64,000 nt of DNA, from assembly GCA_029245245.1 (NCBI GenBank), contig JAQWPT010000027.1, positions 1-64,000 of the forward strand, given 5' to 3'. The notes beneath the pieces were generated by a model. The model did no database searches. It had not been told where the DNA came from and saw nothing but the letters and a program-made list of their open reading frames with translations. A program made the position numbers and the translations under genes. Within the stretch, counting starts at the first letter, position 1. Each line of letters begins with the position of its first letter. The stretch is from Phycisphaerales bacterium. Its GTDB lineage: Bacteria > Planctomycetota > Phycisphaerae > Phycisphaerales > SM1A02. This document shows positions 21,478-28,268 of the stretch, one piece after another.

Positions 21478-22380
21478 TCAGATGGAAGTGGCCAGGTCCG
21501 CGATGCTCTGGAGCGAGGCGTGCATTGTCATGCCCGGAACGTGCTCCAACGCCAGATGCCCTATGTTCCGGCCTCCGACGGCAAGCAGAATCCCCGCTTC
21601 ATTGCAGTCCCGTGCGAACTGGCTGACCTGGTTCGACTGCTCACGCCCATCGTCGACGATGCTCACCGACAGCCAGGCCAGGTCGGGACGTTCGCCTTCG
21701 GGAAGATCCACGGTGCCACAACGCAGCACGTCCAGTGGCGTGTTCGGCCCGATATTTGACGTATCGCCCCCGCATTCATCGATCACCGCGGCAACCAGCA
21801 TCGAGGGAAGGATGTAGGGATCCGGAGCCAGGGCTGCACCCACTGCCTTGAAACGCGGTGAAGCGGGCTTGACCATGGACTGCATCTGCTGGAGCACCTG
21901 TACGCAGATCTGCGTTGCACAATGTTCGATAAGAATGGTCTGCGGAGTGTGCACACCGTCACCAATGACCTGCAGAGCATATCTCATGTAGGCGTCACCG
22001 ATCTCGGTGATCTTCATCCCCGCCATGAAATGCGAGAGCAGGATCTGCTGTGCAGACTCCTCCTGCCCTTCCTGCAACATCTTCAGGAAATCGTCCGCGG
22101 TATCGGATTCTGCTGCACCAGCATCGATGCCTGCCGGCAACCCAATCGCGGCAGGGTCAAGGATGTCGATGGAGCGATTCCGAATGAAGGTGATCGCTTC
22201 CTTCAGTGAAATGCGTCGGTGCCCCCCGCCGGTCCGAGTCACGGCAAGCAACCCCTGGTCGGCCCATCGCTTCAACGAGGACTCGCTGATTCCAATCGCC
22301 TTGGAAAGGTCGCGGGGCGAAATACTGCGATTGAGGGCCAGTGGCTGCATTGACATCATCTTAGAACCAATTTCGGTCAT
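21478..22380 (-). CDS. MerR-type regulator with cobalamin-binding-like domain (CarH/LitR-like, ligand residues changed)
   Basis: The protein has 300 residues from ATG 22380; an in-frame GTG at 22392 and ATGs at 22359, 22356 and 22350 are alternatives. Residues 20-75 are a MerR-like winged helix (SPRDLSKAIGISESSLKRW, then TGGGHRR). Residues 95-170 form a helical cap, and 175-300 a Rossmann-like B12-binding-type domain with DTSNIGPNTPLD and LLAVGG. CarH/LitR photoreceptors bind B12 through a His in D/E-x-H-x-x-G; here the position reads D187-P-Tyr189. The cap tryptophan of the W-x9-EH motif is also missing (Val143; EH is at 152-153). It may therefore work without B12. It is divergent from the fasciclin-photolyase island. 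Confidence 0.88.
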   Translation of the reverse strand: MTEIGSKMMSMQPLALNRSISPRDLSKAIGISESSLKRWADQGLLAVTRTGGGHRRISLKEAITFIRNRSIDILDPAAIGLPAGIDAGAAESDTADDFLKMLQEGQEESAQQILLSHFMAGMKITEIGDAYMRYALQVIGDGVHTPQTILIEHCATQICVQVLQQMQSMVKPASPRFKAVGAALAPDPYILPSMLVAAVIDECGGDTSNIGPNTPLDVLRCGTVDLPEGERPDLAWLSVSIVDDGREQSNQVSQFARDCNEAGILLAVGGRNIGHLALEHVPGMTMHASLQSIADLATSI

Positions 22381-22393
22381 TTGCGTAAGCACT

Positions 22394-22478
22394 TTGAACG
22401 GATTGAACGATTTTATTGGCTTGTACCCCTTGCATTGCCATGAAATGGTTATATAGTGATGAACGTTATGAACGATTT
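22394..22478. promoter_or_regulatory. Paired direct-repeat operator, TGAACG every 9 bp
   Basis: TGAACG occurs at 22395, 22404, 22460 and 22469. The two 20-bp blocks TTGAACGGATTGAACGATTT (22394-22413) and ATGAACGTTATGAACGATTT (22459-22478) share TGAACG-N3-TGAACGATTT. The first sits just upstream of the regulator start and the second overlaps the predicted start of transcription toward the fasciclin gene. Head-to-tail repeats suit CarH-type tetramers. Confidence 0.65.
22430..22457 (+). promoter_or_regulatory. Promoter TTGCAT-16-TATAGT of the fasciclin-photolyase island
   Basis: TTGCAT (22430-22435) and TATAGT (22452-22457) are separated by 16 bases in an unusually AT-rich stretch. Transcription would begin near 22464, inside the downstream TGAACG pair, which fits repression by the divergent regulator. 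Confidence 0.6.
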
Positions 22479-22535
22479 GGTCGTATTGACTGTTTAAGGC
22501 CCCGAATGGCCCACTACCCCGGAAGGAACTCCACC

Positions 22536-23465
22536 ATGCTTCTCAATCCCATCCTCATCACCGTCATGGCCAGCCTCGGACAGTGCTCGGCAACCAAGAA
22601 TGCCGCAGCCCACTCCGCCGCTGAAGCTCCCACGATTGCTGCCGCTGCTGCCTCACAGGAACAGTTCAGCACGCTCGTGGCCGCACTTGAGGCTGCCGAC
22701 CTTGTCGACACCCTCAACGCCAATGGCCAGTTCACCGTGTTTGCTCCTACCAACGACGCGTTCGCAGCCCTTCCGGAGGGCACCATTCCCGCACTCCTGA
22801 AGAAGGAAAACAAGGGGCAACTCACCGACATCCTCACATACCACGTCGTTCCTTCGAACATGAAGGCCACCGAGGTCATCGGCAGCAGCGGATCCAGAAC
22901 TGTCAATGGACAGTGGGTGGATTTCACCTACGGACCCAACGGCGCCTTCATCGATAACGCTCGAATCACGACGACCGACATCGAGTGCAGCAACGGAACA
23001 ATCCACATCATCGATCAGGTCATCCTTCCCACCGGGAAGAACATCGTTGCAACCGCTTCCGACACGGGAACGTTCAACACACTGCTTGCTGCGGCAGAAG
23101 CAACTGGCCTGGCCAGGAACCTCGGGCACGACGGTCCGTACACGGTCTTTGCTCCCACGGATGATGCATTTGCCCGCCTCGGCAAGAAGAACATCGAGGA
23201 ACTGCTGCTTCCGGAGAACAAGGACAAACTCGCCCGCATCCTCGGAAACCATGTCGTCTCAGGACGCATCTACTCACCGGATGCCCTTGCAGCGGGACAC
23301 GCCAAGACACTGGCCGGAACGCACCTGACCATCAGCATGGTCGAAGGTCGGGCACGCGTCGGCGATGCGAATCTCCTGCTGACTGACATCGATGCCTCCA
23401 ACGGCGTCATCCATGTAATCGACACCGTGCTCATCCCCTCCGAGGAGCAGGCACGTCTCGACTGA
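22536..23465 (+). CDS. Fasciclin (FAS1) protein with two domains
   Basis: The protein has 309 residues. GGAAGGA at 22521-22527 places the start at ATG 22536. A short signal or anchor region is followed by two FAS1 domains at about 40-165 and 170-305. Each has the H1 motif (FTVFAPTNDAFAALP and YTVFAPTDDAFARLG), the H box (YHVVPS, NHVVSG) and the terminal NGTIHIIDQVILP / NGVIHVIDTVLIP. FAS1 domains mediate adhesion at cell surfaces. FAS1 genes recur near LitR/CarH-type regulators and photolyases in other bacteria (from memory). It is the first gene of the island. Confidence 0.95.
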   Translation: MLLNPILITVMASLGQCSATKNAAAHSAAEAPTIAAAAASQEQFSTLVAALEAADLVDTLNANGQFTVFAPTNDAFAALPEGTIPALLKKENKGQLTDILTYHVVPSNMKATEVIGSSGSRTVNGQWVDFTYGPNGAFIDNARITTTDIECSNGTIHIIDQVILPTGKNIVATASDTGTFNTLLAAAEATGLARNLGHDGPYTVFAPTDDAFARLGKKNIEELLLPENKDKLARILGNHVVSGRIYSPDALAAGHAKTLAGTHLTISMVEGRARVGDANLLLTDIDASNGVIHVIDTVLIPSEEQARLD

Positions 23466-23574: not shown

Positions 23575-24966
23575 ATGAAACTCTTCATCCCCACCATCGT
23601 CGCTGCTACGGCACTCGCAACCACTGCTCAAGCCGGAAACGTACGAATCGCCCACCTGAGCCCTGATGCCCCTGACGTAGACGTCCTCGTCGATGGCAAC
23701 GTGGCATTCGCAGGCGTCGCGTTCAACGAGCTCACCGGCTACGCGAACCTTCCACAGGGCGACTACCTCATCCAGGTCGTTCCCGCCGGTGCCAGCAAGC
23801 CGGTCGTCATTGAAACCGTCCTTGCCGTTCCCGCCTCCGGTGACTTCACTGCGGCGGCAATCAATCCCCTCTCCACGATCACGGCCGCGGTCTTCGAAGA
23901 CGACAACCAGCGTAAACCCGGCAACACCCGGGTCCGCTTCGTCCATGCTTCACCCGGCACGCCAGCCGTCGACATCGCCCTGGCCAATGGGGGCCCAGTG
24001 CTCTTCTCGAATGTCGCATTCGGCGAATCTGGCGGCTACATCGAGGTTCCAGCCGGAACCTACGATCTCGAAGCCCGCGTCGCCGGCACCGATACGGTTG
24101 CACTGTCACTCCCCGGCACGGCGCTGTCCGGCGGCACCAGCATCACCGTATGGGCATCCGGCCTCCTCAAGGGAAACCCTGCCCTGGGCGTAGCGGTCTC
24201 ACTCGACGTCGCTCCGATTTCCAAGGTCCGAGTGCTCCATGCAAGTCCCGATGCACCCTCGGTGGACATCCGTGTCAATGGCCTGACCGCCATTCAGGAT
24301 CTCAGCTACCTCGAGAACACCGGCTACGTCGACCTCGATACCGGATCGACCAACATCCAGGTGGTCCCCAGCGGGCTCGAAGGCCCGGTCGTCATCAATG
24401 CCACCCTCGACCTCGTGGCCGCGGACTACTCCGTGCTTGCCATCGGTGAACTGGCAGACATCGCCCCGCTGCCGCTGGCTGATGACAACATGCTTGCCGA
24501 CGGCGCCAGGATCCGATTCGTCCATGCCTCCCCGGATGCTCCGAGCGTGGACATTGCCCTTGCCGACGGCGGACCCGTTCTCTTCGCCGATGTCTCCTTC
24601 GGAACCTCCGGCGGCTACATCGAGGTCCCCGGTGGCATCTACGACCTGGAAGCACGGGTCGCCGGCACGGACACCGTCGCACTTTCGGTTCCCGGCGTGA
24701 ACGTCACGGGGAACCGCGTCTTCACGGTTGTCGCAACCGGCCTTCTCTCGGGTACACCCAGCCTCAACGCCCTTGCGCTCCTGGACGCAGAGGCATGTCG
24801 AACGGATGTCAATGGCGATGCCAAGACATCTGTCGACGATGTGCTCGCCGTGCTCACGGCCTGGTCGACGACCGACCCCTGGGCTGACTTGAATGGCTCC
24901 GGCACCGTCGAGGTGATGGATCTCATGGCAGTCATCCAGTCATTCGGGGTATGCAGATCCGAGTAA
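23575..24966 (+). CDS. Secreted DUF4397 protein (four domains) with dockerin-like tail
   Basis: The protein has 463 residues. The signal peptide MKLFIPTIVAATALATTAQA is followed by four DUF4397 beta-sandwich units, each opening with the VR-x-x-H-x-SP pattern: VRIAHLSPDAPDVDVLVDG, VRFVHASPGTPAVDIAL, VRVLHASPDAPSVDIRVNG and IRFVHASPDAPSVDIAL. Units 2 and 4 resemble each other most, as do 1 and 3, so a two-domain block was duplicated. The C-terminus has two degenerate EF-hand-like units (DVNGDAKTSVDDVLAVLTAW, DLNGSGTVEVMDLMAVIQSF). DUF4397 is a surface domain of unknown function. It probably belongs to the same transcription unit as the fasciclin gene. Confidence 0.92.
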   Translation: MKLFIPTIVAATALATTAQAGNVRIAHLSPDAPDVDVLVDGNVAFAGVAFNELTGYANLPQGDYLIQVVPAGASKPVVIETVLAVPASGDFTAAAINPLSTITAAVFEDDNQRKPGNTRVRFVHASPGTPAVDIALANGGPVLFSNVAFGESGGYIEVPAGTYDLEARVAGTDTVALSLPGTALSGGTSITVWASGLLKGNPALGVAVSLDVAPISKVRVLHASPDAPSVDIRVNGLTAIQDLSYLENTGYVDLDTGSTNIQVVPSGLEGPVVINATLDLVAADYSVLAIGELADIAPLPLADDNMLADGARIRFVHASPDAPSVDIALADGGPVLFADVSFGTSGGYIEVPGGIYDLEARVAGTDTVALSVPGVNVTGNRVFTVVATGLLSGTPSLNALALLDAEACRTDVNGDAKTSVDDVLAVLTAWSTTDPWADLNGSGTVEVMDLMAVIQSFGVCRSE

Positions 24967-25118: not shown

Positions 25119-25388
25119 ATGAGAATCATCGACGTCATCGCGGCCGTGCTGCTCGTCATCGGCGGACTGAACTGGGGCCTCTGGGGCTTCTTCGAGTTCG
25201 ATCTCGTCGCGACCATATTCGGCGGAAACACCGCCGCTGCTTCCCGGCTCGTCTACATCCTCGTGGGTACCGCAGCCATCTACCAGGCTGCCAACCTCAA
25301 GGGCATCCAGGCCCGCTGGAATGTATCACTGACTGAACTCCGCCCTGCTTCTGGCAAGCGGAATGACCAAGCAACGAGTTCCTCATGA
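25119..25388 (+). CDS. DUF378 small membrane protein
   Basis: The protein has 89 residues, with AAAGGA 9 bases before the ATG. The pattern MRIIDVIAAVLLVIGGLNWG, then FDLVATIFG and RLVYILVGTAAIYQ, is the DUF378 signature, with two membrane helices. The role of the family is unknown. Its stop overlaps the start of the DUF2867 gene by 4 bp, making a three-gene coupled operon ending in photolyase. Confidence 0.93.
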   Translation: MRIIDVIAAVLLVIGGLNWGLWGFFEFDLVATIFGGNTAAASRLVYILVGTAAIYQAANLKGIQARWNVSLTELRPASGKRNDQATSSS

Positions 25389-26902
25389 ACACTGCACACG
25401 ACTCCCCACGGAATCCCGGCTCACCTCTCCGTATTGCGCTCACCGGAGCGACCGGGTACGTGGGGGGTCGACTGGCACCGCGACTGCTTGCTTCGGGTCA
25501 CCAGTTGAACTGCCTCGTCCGATCAAGGCAGAAACTCGAGTCCCGTCACTGGTCCGGAGATTCGAATGTCTCCACCTTTGAAGTCGACATGACCGACGAG
25601 GACAGCATGGTCGAATCCCTCAGGGGATGCGACGTCGCCTATTACCTCGTGCACTCGATGCAATCCAGCCGAGACTACGCTCGACAGGACGATCTGCTGG
25701 CGAACAACTTTGCACGTGCGGCGGAAACCGCCGGCGTGAAACGAATCATCTACCTCGGTGGGCTGGGTGAAACCGGTGACGGCCTGAGCACCCACCTGAC
25801 CTCACGTCGACAGGTCGAATCCGCCCTGGAGTCCACCTCCATTCCGGTCACCACCCTTCGCGCAGCGATGATCATCGGATCGGGTTCCGCCTCCTTCGAG
25901 ATCCTCCGGTACCTGGTTGAACGACTTCCCATCATGGTGACTCCCAAGTGGGTCTCTACGGAATCGCAACCCATTTCGGTCATTGACGTGCTCTTCTACC
26001 TCGAGGCCTGCCTCGACAGCCCCGACAGCATCGGCCGGACGATCGATGTCGGGGGCTCAAGCATCATCACCTACCGCGAACTCATGAAGATCATGGCCAA
26101 GGCACTGGGACTCAGGAAGCGGTTCGTGATCCCGGTCCCCCTGCTGACGCCCCGCCTCAGTTCCTACTGGATCCACTTCGTCACCCCGGTGATCGCTCGC
26201 ATTGCCCAGCCACTGGCCGAGGGGCTCAGCAACCGCGTGGTCTGCCGCGACGATATCGCTCGCCGCATGTTCAAGCACGAACCACTCGATCCAGCAGAAG
26301 CAATCAAGCGGGCCCTCCAGCACGAAACGACGAACGAGGTCATGACCTCCTGGATGGATGCAGGCCGCGTCCCCGGAGATCCGGACTGGTCGGGTGGCAA
26401 GGTCTTCATTGACCAGCGATCCACCACCGTCAATGCCGACGCGCAATCGATCTACGAGGCGATCCGGATCATCGGCGGCGGGCACGGGTACTACTCGGCG
26501 GACTGGCTCTGGCATGTCCGCGGGTTCATGGACAAGGCACTTGGTGGGCCCGGACTTCGCCGTGGTCGTCGTGATCAGCGAGAACTCGCCTTCGGAGATG
26601 CCCTGGACTTCTGGAGAGTGCTCCATGCAGATCCTGGTCGCCGACTCACCCTCTTTGCGGAAATGAAACTCCCAGGCACGGCGACCCTCGAATTCGACAT
26701 CAAGGCGCCCACGGCTGCTGGCGAATCTCCCTCTCTGGTCCAGGTGGCCCGGTTCCGACCGCGAGGCCTGCTGGGCATCCTCTACTGGTATTCGATCAAG
26801 CCACTGCACGGCATCGTGTTCAACGGCATACTCAACGGCATCAAACGCGAGGCCGAGGCCACATCACCCTCTGCAGAATCAGGAGCACACACCCATGCCT
26901 GA
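25385..26902 (+). CDS. Atypical short-chain dehydrogenase with DUF2867 domain
   Basis: The protein has 505 residues. Residues 15-310 are an NAD(P)-binding Rossmann fold with TGATGYVGGRLAPRLL, DVAYYLVHSM and IIYLGGLGE. Residues of about 330-490 are a DUF2867 (START-like) domain with DWLWHVRGFMDKALGGPG, DFWRVLHADPGRRLTLFAEM and LLGILYWYSIKPLHGIVF. This two-domain protein is a common companion of photolyase and LitR-type regulators (from memory), and a role in quinone or lipid repair has been suggested, not shown. It overlaps DUF378 by 4 bp and the photolyase by 8 bp. Confidence 0.93.
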   Translation: MNTAHDSPRNPGSPLRIALTGATGYVGGRLAPRLLASGHQLNCLVRSRQKLESRHWSGDSNVSTFEVDMTDEDSMVESLRGCDVAYYLVHSMQSSRDYARQDDLLANNFARAAETAGVKRIIYLGGLGETGDGLSTHLTSRRQVESALESTSIPVTTLRAAMIIGSGSASFEILRYLVERLPIMVTPKWVSTESQPISVIDVLFYLEACLDSPDSIGRTIDVGGSSIITYRELMKIMAKALGLRKRFVIPVPLLTPRLSSYWIHFVTPVIARIAQPLAEGLSNRVVCRDDIARRMFKHEPLDPAEAIKRALQHETTNEVMTSWMDAGRVPGDPDWSGGKVFIDQRSTTVNADAQSIYEAIRIIGGGHGYYSADWLWHVRGFMDKALGGPGLRRGRRDQRELAFGDALDFWRVLHADPGRRLTLFAEMKLPGTATLEFDIKAPTAAGESPSLVQVARFRPRGLLGILYWYSIKPLHGIVFNGILNGIKREAEATSPSAESGAHTHA

Positions 26903-28268
26903 ACTCCTGTGGATTCGCAACGATCTTCGCATCGCTGACAACCCTGCGCTGACCATGGCACTTCAGGGCACCGACAGGAGTGTCATCGGCCTCTTCGTCT
27001 GCACACCCGGGGCATGGAAACAGGATGACTGGGGATCTCCGCGAGTCACCTTTCTCCTGGAATCGCTCCGCGAGTACCAGAGCAGCCTCAGAAAGCTGAA
27101 CATTCCCCTGCTCGTTCGAATTGTTGATAGCCATGCAGATGCCGCCAGGGTGGTGCAGGACGTCGCGTCCCTGCATTCATGCTCTTCCGTACATGCAGGG
27201 TTGGAGTTCGGACTGCATGAGCAGGCAAGGGACCAGGAGGTGGCCACGAGACTCGCCGACGTTGGCATCGCATTCCACCTCCACCACGACCAGATGGTGA
27301 TCCCCCCCGAGAACGTCCTGACGAAGACGGGAACCAGTTTCAAGGTCTTTACCCCGTTTCGCAATGCGTGGAACAAACAGTTCATCGGCAGCGGGCTTCC
27401 CCCGGTGGTCGAACACACCCCAGCTGACCCCCTGGACATCGCATCCGATCCAGTCCCTTCCGAACTCGATGGATTTCCCGCCTGGGCCGGCATGTCCCGT
27501 TGGAATCCAGGGCACCATGCCGCCCTCCGCCAGTTGAATCGATTCCTGTCGAACCCCATCGGCTCCTACCACGTCGATCGAAACCGTCCGGACATTGATG
27601 GATCCAGCTCACTGTCACCGTGGCTGGCGGTCGGAGCCATCTCCCCGATCTCGTGCCTGCGCCCACTCGTCCAAGAGCATGGACCGGATCCCCAGCACTG
27701 GCCGGCCGGCCCCGGAACCTGGCAGAGCGAACTGGTTTGGAGAGAGTTCTATCGCTACGTGATGCACCACAATCCACGTGTCAGCATGCGCATGCCCATG
27801 CAGGAATGGACCGAGCAGCTGCAATGGCGGAAAGACGATGACGGGTTCGCCGCCTGGTGTGAAGGCAGAACAGGCATCGACATCGTGGACGCAGGCATGC
27901 ACCAGCTCCTGGAGACGGGATGGATGCACAACCGCATGCGAATGATCACCGCCATGTTCCTCACCAAGAACCTGCTCATCGACTGGCGCCATGGCGAGCG
28001 GTTCTTCGCACGCCACCTCGTGGACTACGACTTCCCGAGCAACAACGGCGGCTGGCAGTGGGCGGCCTCCACCGGGACCGATGCGGCTCCGTACTTCAGG
28101 ATCTTCAACCCGGAACGCCAGGCCGTGCTGTTCGATCCTGATCACGAATACCGGCAACGATGGAACCCCGGCTTCAGTCCGATGACCACTCCACCCATCG
28201 TGAATCTGGTTGAAACCCGTCGGCGCGCGATCGAGGCCTTTAAGCAGGCCCGGACCGTGACCAGCTGA
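26895..28268 (+). CDS. phrB: Deoxyribodipyrimidine photo-lyase (class I CPD type)
   Basis: The protein has 457 residues. The N-terminal antenna domain opens with LLWIRNDLRIADNPAL. The FAD domain carries SSLSPWLAVGAISP, WQSELVWREFYRYV, DIVDAGMHQL, GWMHNRMRMITAMFL and NNGGWQWAASTGTDAAPYF, with Trp387 and Trp389 at the electron-transfer end. These are hallmarks of light-driven repair of cyclobutane pyrimidine dimers. It ends the DUF378-DUF2867-photolyase operon and is followed by a strong hairpin at 28295. Confidence 0.97.
   Translation: MPELLWIRNDLRIADNPALTMALQGTDRSVIGLFVCTPGAWKQDDWGSPRVTFLLESLREYQSSLRKLNIPLLVRIVDSHADAARVVQDVASLHSCSSVHAGLEFGLHEQARDQEVATRLADVGIAFHLHHDQMVIPPENVLTKTGTSFKVFTPFRNAWNKQFIGSGLPPVVEHTPADPLDIASDPVPSELDGFPAWAGMSRWNPGHHAALRQLNRFLSNPIGSYHVDRNRPDIDGSSSLSPWLAVGAISPISCLRPLVQEHGPDPQHWPAGPGTWQSELVWREFYRYVMHHNPRVSMRMPMQEWTEQLQWRKDDDGFAAWCEGRTGIDIVDAGMHQLLETGWMHNRMRMITAMFLTKNLLIDWRHGERFFARHLVDYDFPSNNGGWQWAASTGTDAAPYFRIFNPERQAVLFDPDHEYRQRWNPGFSPMTTPPIVNLVETRRRAIEAFKQARTVTS

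Follow-up and report, generated by a model that had tools for sequence, protein, structure and literature searches.

Nine-base-pair tandem repeats as probable operators of a MerR-type, CarH-fold regulator divergent from a photolyase island

In the 64,000-nucleotide stretch of DNA analysed here (the window), a gene for a MerR-type regulator and a photolyase island diverge from an interval that carries two pairs of TGAACG direct repeats, and the locus raises the question of which protein reads these repeats and with what consequence for the flanking genes. The genes concerned are as follows.

21478 to 22392, minus strand: regulator, with a MerR-type winged helix-turn-helix (HTH), a CarH-like four-helix bundle and a Rossmann domain; likely start ATG 22380 or later
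22536 to 23465, plus strand: fasciclin (FAS1), first gene of the island (PF02469, E 1.3e-69)
23575 to 24966, plus strand: DUF4397 protein
25119 to 25388, plus strand: DUF378 protein
25385 to 26902, plus strand: NAD(P)-binding/DUF2867 protein
26895 to 28268, plus strand: DNA photolyase

We consider it highly probable that the repeats are operators of the divergent MerR-type, CarH-fold regulator, which would bind head-to-tail on 9-bp units and repress both the island and itself. The repeats, their 9-bp period, their association with the regulator gene and their overlap with predicted promoters are established at the sequence level, and the repeats very probably form the docking site of the adjoining regulator.

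The exact copies of TGAACG-N3-TGAACG (22395-22409 and 22460-22474) lie precisely where the original prediction had placed them, within TGAACGGATTGAACGATTT (22395-22413) and TGAACGTTATGAACGATTT (22460-22478) as read directly from the sequence. The larger pattern behind these pairs is a tandem of the 9-bp unit AAWCGTTCA, from which two operators are predicted.

22395 to 22412, minus strand: operator 1 (predicted, regulator promoter), two 9-bp units reading on that strand AATCGTTCA (22404-22412) and ATCCGTTCA (22395-22403); the homologous block is kept in four species
22460 to 22495, minus strand: operator 2 (predicted, island promoter), four 9-bp units, AAACAGTCA (22487-22495), ATACGACCA (22478-22486), AATCGTTCA (22469-22477) and TAACGTTCA (22460-22468)

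Within operator 2 the units AATCGTTCA and TAACGTTCA are strong, and AAACAGTCA and ATACGACCA weaker; scored in 9-bp steps, the array reaches 30/36, whereas the best of 100 mononucleotide shuffles scores 21. A four-unit operator 2 is also present in the related loci L039 (31/36), L040 (30) and L041 (28), with shuffle maxima of 20, 23 and 21, respectively, and operator 1 comprises two or three units across the window and these three loci. Across the four species concerned, the aligned interval has 39 invariant columns, of which 29 (manual count) fall inside the two operators; these account for 54 of the 176 window bases of the aligned divergent interval. Four units as a general rule were considered and rejected: averaged over 32 loci the in-phase flanking rise is slight (best at +18, z 2.3), the PWM version of the flanking-unit test gave no clear third unit, and four units are clear only in the window, L039, L040, L041, L057, L062 and L069.

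The window's genome (2.69 Mb, 38 contigs) contains three exact copies of TGAACG-N3-TGAACG, two being operators 1 and 2 and the third lying at C30:125298. Sought across the whole genome with up to two mismatches, AAWCGTTCA-WAWCGTTCA matches the two operators only, which led us to discard a wider regulon in this genome; at exactly three mismatches five more matches appear, one overlapping operator 2 and four elsewhere. Inside the window a looser motif is mildly in excess, with 12 matches (up to two mismatches) against 6.0 expected and 2 of 100 shuffles as high. Since this window-only excess is modest, the case rests on conservation.

The upstream regions of related regulators provide that evidence. 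Among 132 distinct regulators, the window's included, 73 are preceded by a 9-bp CGTTCA pair within one mismatch and in the direction of the regulator, versus 8 on the opposite strand; at the other spacings between 6 and 20 bp the count is 0-2, apart from 19 at 18 bp. No pair within one mismatch occurs in the regulator direction in 59 of the 132 (on neither strand in 54), and none within two mismatches in that direction in 39. The set combines order relatives, a phylum sample and a named-genome search, 174 of 176 sources having passed the filter; its members are distinct over the first 200 residues, and near-identical relatives remain among them. The best 80 of 321 loci from the named-genome search were used, and the window protein as a lone query against the named genomes found no relative.

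The order set taken separately gives the same picture. Its 67 distinct regulator places (68 found, two G076 pieces being merged) yield 66 rows, window included, with the contig-end fragment G139 left out; alignment A1 holds 64 of them, L101 and L102 being omitted as degenerate. The 9-bp CGTTCA pair is present, in the regulator direction and within one mismatch, in 36 of these 66 upstream regions and on the other strand in 3, other spacings from 6 to 20 bp giving 0-2 in the regulator direction and 18 bp giving 12. In control windows taken from other, mostly coding parts of these loci, it occurs in 3 of 1850 on one strand and in 4 of 1850 on the other. Judged from these counts, the recurrence of the repeat across relatives appears clearly beyond chance, and conservation, which the original prediction had left to a search of the genome and of orthologous intervals, is borne out. 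Furthermore, 15 of 17 loci titled as other phyla (Acidobacteriota, Myxococcota/Deltaproteobacteria, Gemmatimonadota; titles of metagenome bins can be wrong) carry the pair. Loci with no phylum in their title (L183, L188) were grouped with Planctomycetota, a group that overlaps the 66 rows.

Base composition defines the unit. With a background A/T content of 44%, the 73 aligned pairs show 91-99% A/T in the three spacer bases, for which the search pattern did not select, 83% at the position preceding the first AAW and 50-66% in the five bases past the second unit. The A/T-rich spacer and preceding base thus point to a repeating unit AAWCGTTCA, preceded by A, while the strong constancy of CA inside CGTTCA is in part imposed by the pattern used for searching.

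What kind of protein would occupy such sites? The regulator is 304 aa long, sensor domain included, and its AlphaFold2 model (mean pLDDT 95.5) shows a MerR HTH, a four-helix bundle and a Rossmann fold in the layout of CarH. The best Foldseek matches are the cobalamin domain of CtMerR (8jbt, E 2.8e-10) and CarH (5c8f, 9.2e-10), and the family profile matches CtMerR at 3e-45, CarH at 7.7e-16 and two BldC entries at about 2e-7. These matches favour an AdoB12-dependent photoreceptor of the CarH type, a tetramer that would sit on DNA in the dark and fall apart in light, as does conservation within the Wx9EH motif, whose E is retained in 130 of the 132 regulators and whose H in all of them (the complete motif in 111). 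A B12-binding_2 domain, which would suit such a photoreceptor, also occurs in a 1184-aa open frame of the window's genome, putatively methionine synthase as judged by length only. Nevertheless, we regard this reading as unlikely. The window protein keeps EH without the W of Wx9EH, and at the position of the axial cobalamin-ligating His it has Tyr (DPYILPS), a replacement that makes His-ligated AdoB12 photosensing doubtful. The same position, window included, is Tyr in 113 of the 132 regulators, His in 10 and another residue in 9; an unrooted FastTree tree of the 132 places 12 changes among Tyr, His and other here and does not tell the older state. The window protein also reaches only 23 bits with the NCBI CarH model, whose cut-off is 400, and the operators argue against this photoreceptor through their 9-bp period, set against the 11-bp repeats given for CarH in the accessible parts of the literature.

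Those published CarH operators are described there as 11-bp repeats, nAnnTnnACAn or, more loosely, nnnnTnnACAn (PMC9304148, PMC8156234). Sought upstream of all 132 regulators, a run of three TnnACA at 11-bp steps was found in none; at most one of the three is present in the window, and at most two, in a single case, among the 132 regions. CarH operators of the published kind are thus ruled out for these upstream regions, in agreement with the original prediction, which had set the repeats apart from them. The proteins of Thermus, Bacillus and Myxococcus share with our regulator the two-domain layout, photo-oxidative defence genes and direct repeats; they differ in their 11-bp repeats and in AdoB12 use with His and Wx9EH, none of which the window has. 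The best match in both sequence and fold, CtMerR of Chloracidobacterium thermophilum (PDB 8JBS/8JBT), likewise combines a MerR-type HTH with a CarH-like domain, with SESS-KRW-D-G and RT-GGHRR common to its HTH and those of the regulator family. The window protein, with Tyr instead of His and lacking Wx9EH, differs from CtMerR, where both the axial His and the Trp are present according to the part of its description available to us, which also reports a tetramer turning into a monomer in light and calls its DNA site "alternative" (PMC11796333).

Class II LitR proteins of Pseudomonas (PplR1, PmlR2) offer another comparison. As described in the available portion of the source, they are B12-independent relatives of CarH that repress light-inducible genes, as proposed here; unlike our regulator, they keep one of two B12 domains and have a LOV protein partner (PMC9758184). 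Their site is given as TGTACA-N12-TGTACA, with an 18-bp period, twice 9 (PMC9758184). Sites of this type, sought as T(G/A)TACA-N12-TGTA(C/T)A, were found in 0 of the 132 upstream regions and are ruled out there. The 18-bp CGTTCA signal noted above (19/132) is twice the 9-bp unit and has the same period as these Pseudomonas sites.

The closest precedent for the DNA geometry comes from BldC of Streptomyces (PDB 6AMK/6AMA), the 9-bp period and the A/T tract having been established here before the comparison was made. According to the accessible part of the structural report, BldC protomers line up head-to-tail on 9-bp direct repeats of consensus AATTXXXX(C), of which whiI has two and smeA-ssfA four; its Arg30 reads a C-G pair via a TpG step, and His46, Arg47 and Arg48 lie at the AT-rich minor groove (PMC5859096). 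The 9-bp repeats, the two or four units and the frame of an AT tract, four bases and a C all recur in our operators, a likeness of sequence pattern only. Placed in the BldC register, the unit would read AAAW-CGTT-C, the next A giving a TpG on the other strand. The main DNA-contact residues described for BldC also appear conserved. In equivalents mapped from the alignment and the published residue names, Arg30, Trp31, His46 and Arg47 are invariant in 132/132 regulators and Arg48 is kept in 129/132. BldC differs, as far as that description goes, in having 68 residues without a sensor domain and in controlling development, whereas the regulator here has a large sensor domain. Furthermore, the base contact Lys26 is replaced by Ser in 131/132, and Arg22 of the inter-protomer salt bridge Glu16-Arg22 by Gly in 130/132. 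The window protein is not of the BldC family proper, scoring 27.5 bits with the NCBI BldC model at a cut-off of 77. By analogy with the published portion available to us, BldC seems to fit the DNA geometry better than the CarH tetramer does. Of the CarH-like head-to-tail tetramer evoked by the original prediction, the CarH fold and the direct repeats are retained, and the DNA geometry, at 9 bp, is better matched by BldC. Binding of the regulator to the repeats is thus a strong inference from sequence.

The effect of such binding depends on the promoters, which we predict as follows.

22430 to 22457, plus strand: predicted island promoter, TTGCAT (22430-22435), 16-bp spacer, TATAGT (22452-22457)
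22410 to 22415, minus strand: predicted -10 element for the regulator, TAAAAT, overlapping operator 1 by three bases (its last three, the operator's first three)

The predicted island promoter ends 2 bp ahead of operator 2. Its elements TTGCAT-16-TATAGT are present as had been claimed, and the predicted +1 (about 22464) falls inside operator 2, so that a repeat indeed covers it. The accompanying claim that the other repeat abuts the start of the regulator holds for the most upstream start only (GTG, 22392) and not for the likelier ones; ATG 22380 or later is preferred because alignments begin at residue 6 for the nearest relative and at about 13-23 for the others. A consensus promoter scan of 22300-22560 reported none, the island -35 being weak. 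The two predicted promoters point apart with overlapping -35 regions, and in relatives TANAAT is fused to the unit in 14 of 43 upstream AATC units versus 0 of 9 units in a small control set.

Both arrays therefore sit on predicted -10/+1 regions, where a bound oligomer should block polymerase at both promoters, and the position on the +1 suggests repression. MerR proteins classically activate, and the regulator might instead be an activator or a MerR-style promoter twister at the repeats. The tandem of locus L137, which ends 8 bp before a TATAAT ahead of a phytoene-desaturase-like gene, can be cited for this and fits either sign. We judge activation distinctly improbable, given the obstruction expected from the arrays in the window and the fact that CarH, class II LitR and BldC are all described as repressors in the parts of their accounts available to us.

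A DNA loop joining the two operators, which the original prediction had allowed for on account of the 65-bp spacing, deserves little credence. In ten of the fourteen loci inspected (core sites hand-picked) the operators stand 63-75 bp apart. The variation in distance exceeds one helical turn, with no clear phasing, and the remaining four loci show 84 bp, 152 bp, three sites and one site. The near-constant distance is explained as well by the overlapping divergent promoters, and we have dropped the loop.

The distribution of the tandem also follows that of the regulator gene. Kinship being uncorrected in all these comparisons, the exact tandem AANCGTTCAWANCGTTCA is present in 20 of the 63 regulator-bearing genomes of the order and in 0 of the 188 that lack the gene, and the tandem within one mismatch in 40/63 versus 17/188; 23 of the 63 have the regulator yet no tandem even at one mismatch. 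In the phylum sample the corresponding figures are 19/53 versus 3/241 for the exact tandem and 38/53 versus 39/241 within one mismatch. The order sample comprises 251 genomes, with the regulator called at E <= 1e-8, and the phylum sample 294 genomes at E <= 1e-40, a threshold picked after seeing the matches (100 genomes pass at E <= 1e-15). G378, one of the three phylum-sample exceptions, has a partial, HTH-only regulator match (4e-22). That another transcription factor reads the repeats, with the regulator gene only a neighbour, is hardly credible: some response regulators do bind direct repeats according to the accessible part of the BldC report (PMC5859096), and a tandem within one mismatch is present in 17 of the 188 genomes of the order that lack the regulator, but exact tandems in the order are confined to regulator-bearing genomes, pairs upstream of the regulator run overwhelmingly in one direction, and the BldC base frame and invariant contact residues fit the regulator. 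The window's genome has a single copy of the regulator. At L240 (G292:C96:20539-22283) two copies are convergent, tail to tail, 23 bp apart by match coordinates.

In this context, we put forward that the winged HTH of each protomer would dock on one 9-bp unit, AAAW-CGTT-C in the BldC register, and that a unidirectional head-to-tail stack would form, of two protomers at the regulator promoter and of up to four at the island promoter. The bound oligomer would keep RNA polymerase off both promoters, with repression of the island and autorepression as the outcome. Light or photo-oxidative stress, a signal suggested by gene content only, would be sensed by the C-terminal CarH-like domain and loosen the oligomer, and FAS1, DUF4397, DUF378, DUF2867 and photolyase would then be switched on. 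The operator shared by regulator and island, as originally proposed, is upheld by recurrence in relatives, presence/absence, both predicted promoters and structural precedent, its repressive sign being deduced from position only.

The same features may extend well beyond this locus. We tentatively suggest a widespread CarH-fold class that combines BldC-type 9-bp binding with a mostly Tyr pocket, detects light or photo-oxidative stress by way of some ligand or state distinct from His-ligated AdoB12 and sets promoter strength by unit number (2-4). Candidate members occur in Planctomycetota and in loci titled Acidobacteriota, Myxococcota/Deltaproteobacteria and Gemmatimonadota. Such a class would join the CarH sensor fold and the 9-bp head-to-tail stacking of BldC in one protein. 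It would also provide a testable operator code across phyla for a large group of probable light or photo-oxidation regulators, and it suggests an operator for CtMerR. The Tyr at the place of the axial His allows a direct test of whether CarH-fold sensors work without His-ligated B12. We found no earlier description of the 9-bp operator in a literature search that covered mainly open-access work and top-ranked matches, mostly at title or abstract level.

Regarding gene content, the neighbourhoods of the 66 rows, which differ in length and are in some cases truncated at the end of a contig, include photolyase in 19, fasciclin in 19, DUF378 in 15 and DUF2867 in 12. Behind the regulator of the window lie a DUF3817 and a DUF2891 gene (21438-20111, minus strand), with relatives in only 2 and 1 of the 66 rows; given this rarity, they are probably outside the system.

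Tandems remote from the regulator gene were found in 20 further regions of relatives, 17 of which have a site under a stricter pattern (all except L146, L147 and L153). Nine remote sites precede an assignable gene. Fasciclin follows the site in L135, L138, L140, L141 and L143, the last of these adjoining a regulator. The site of L137 precedes an amine oxidase by Pfam, phytoene-desaturase-like being our own reading, and that of L144 a fatty-acid desaturase followed by an amine oxidase. The sites of L134 and L136 precede sigma-70-type genes (regions 2 and 4), which suggests that the regulator sometimes stands above a sigma factor; these genes (L134:5089-6108 and L136:5135-6145) lie directly behind the tandems. 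Of the other sites, that of L139 falls between a mechanosensitive-channel gene and an ORF with no Pfam match, those of L142, L145, L148 and L149 lie within ORFs and are probably due to chance, and those of L150, L151 and L152 have no gene assigned. An ORF on the minus strand of L152 (3466-4110) resembles superoxide dismutase by eye, and roughly 200 bp separate its start from a weak tandem site. Finally, the window's genome encodes a stand-alone corrinoid-type (B12-binding_2) protein (L282:1036-1734, minus strand; G000:C5:94627-94839), which spans about 230 aa, carries no HTH and could be an unlinked B12 sensor or partner.
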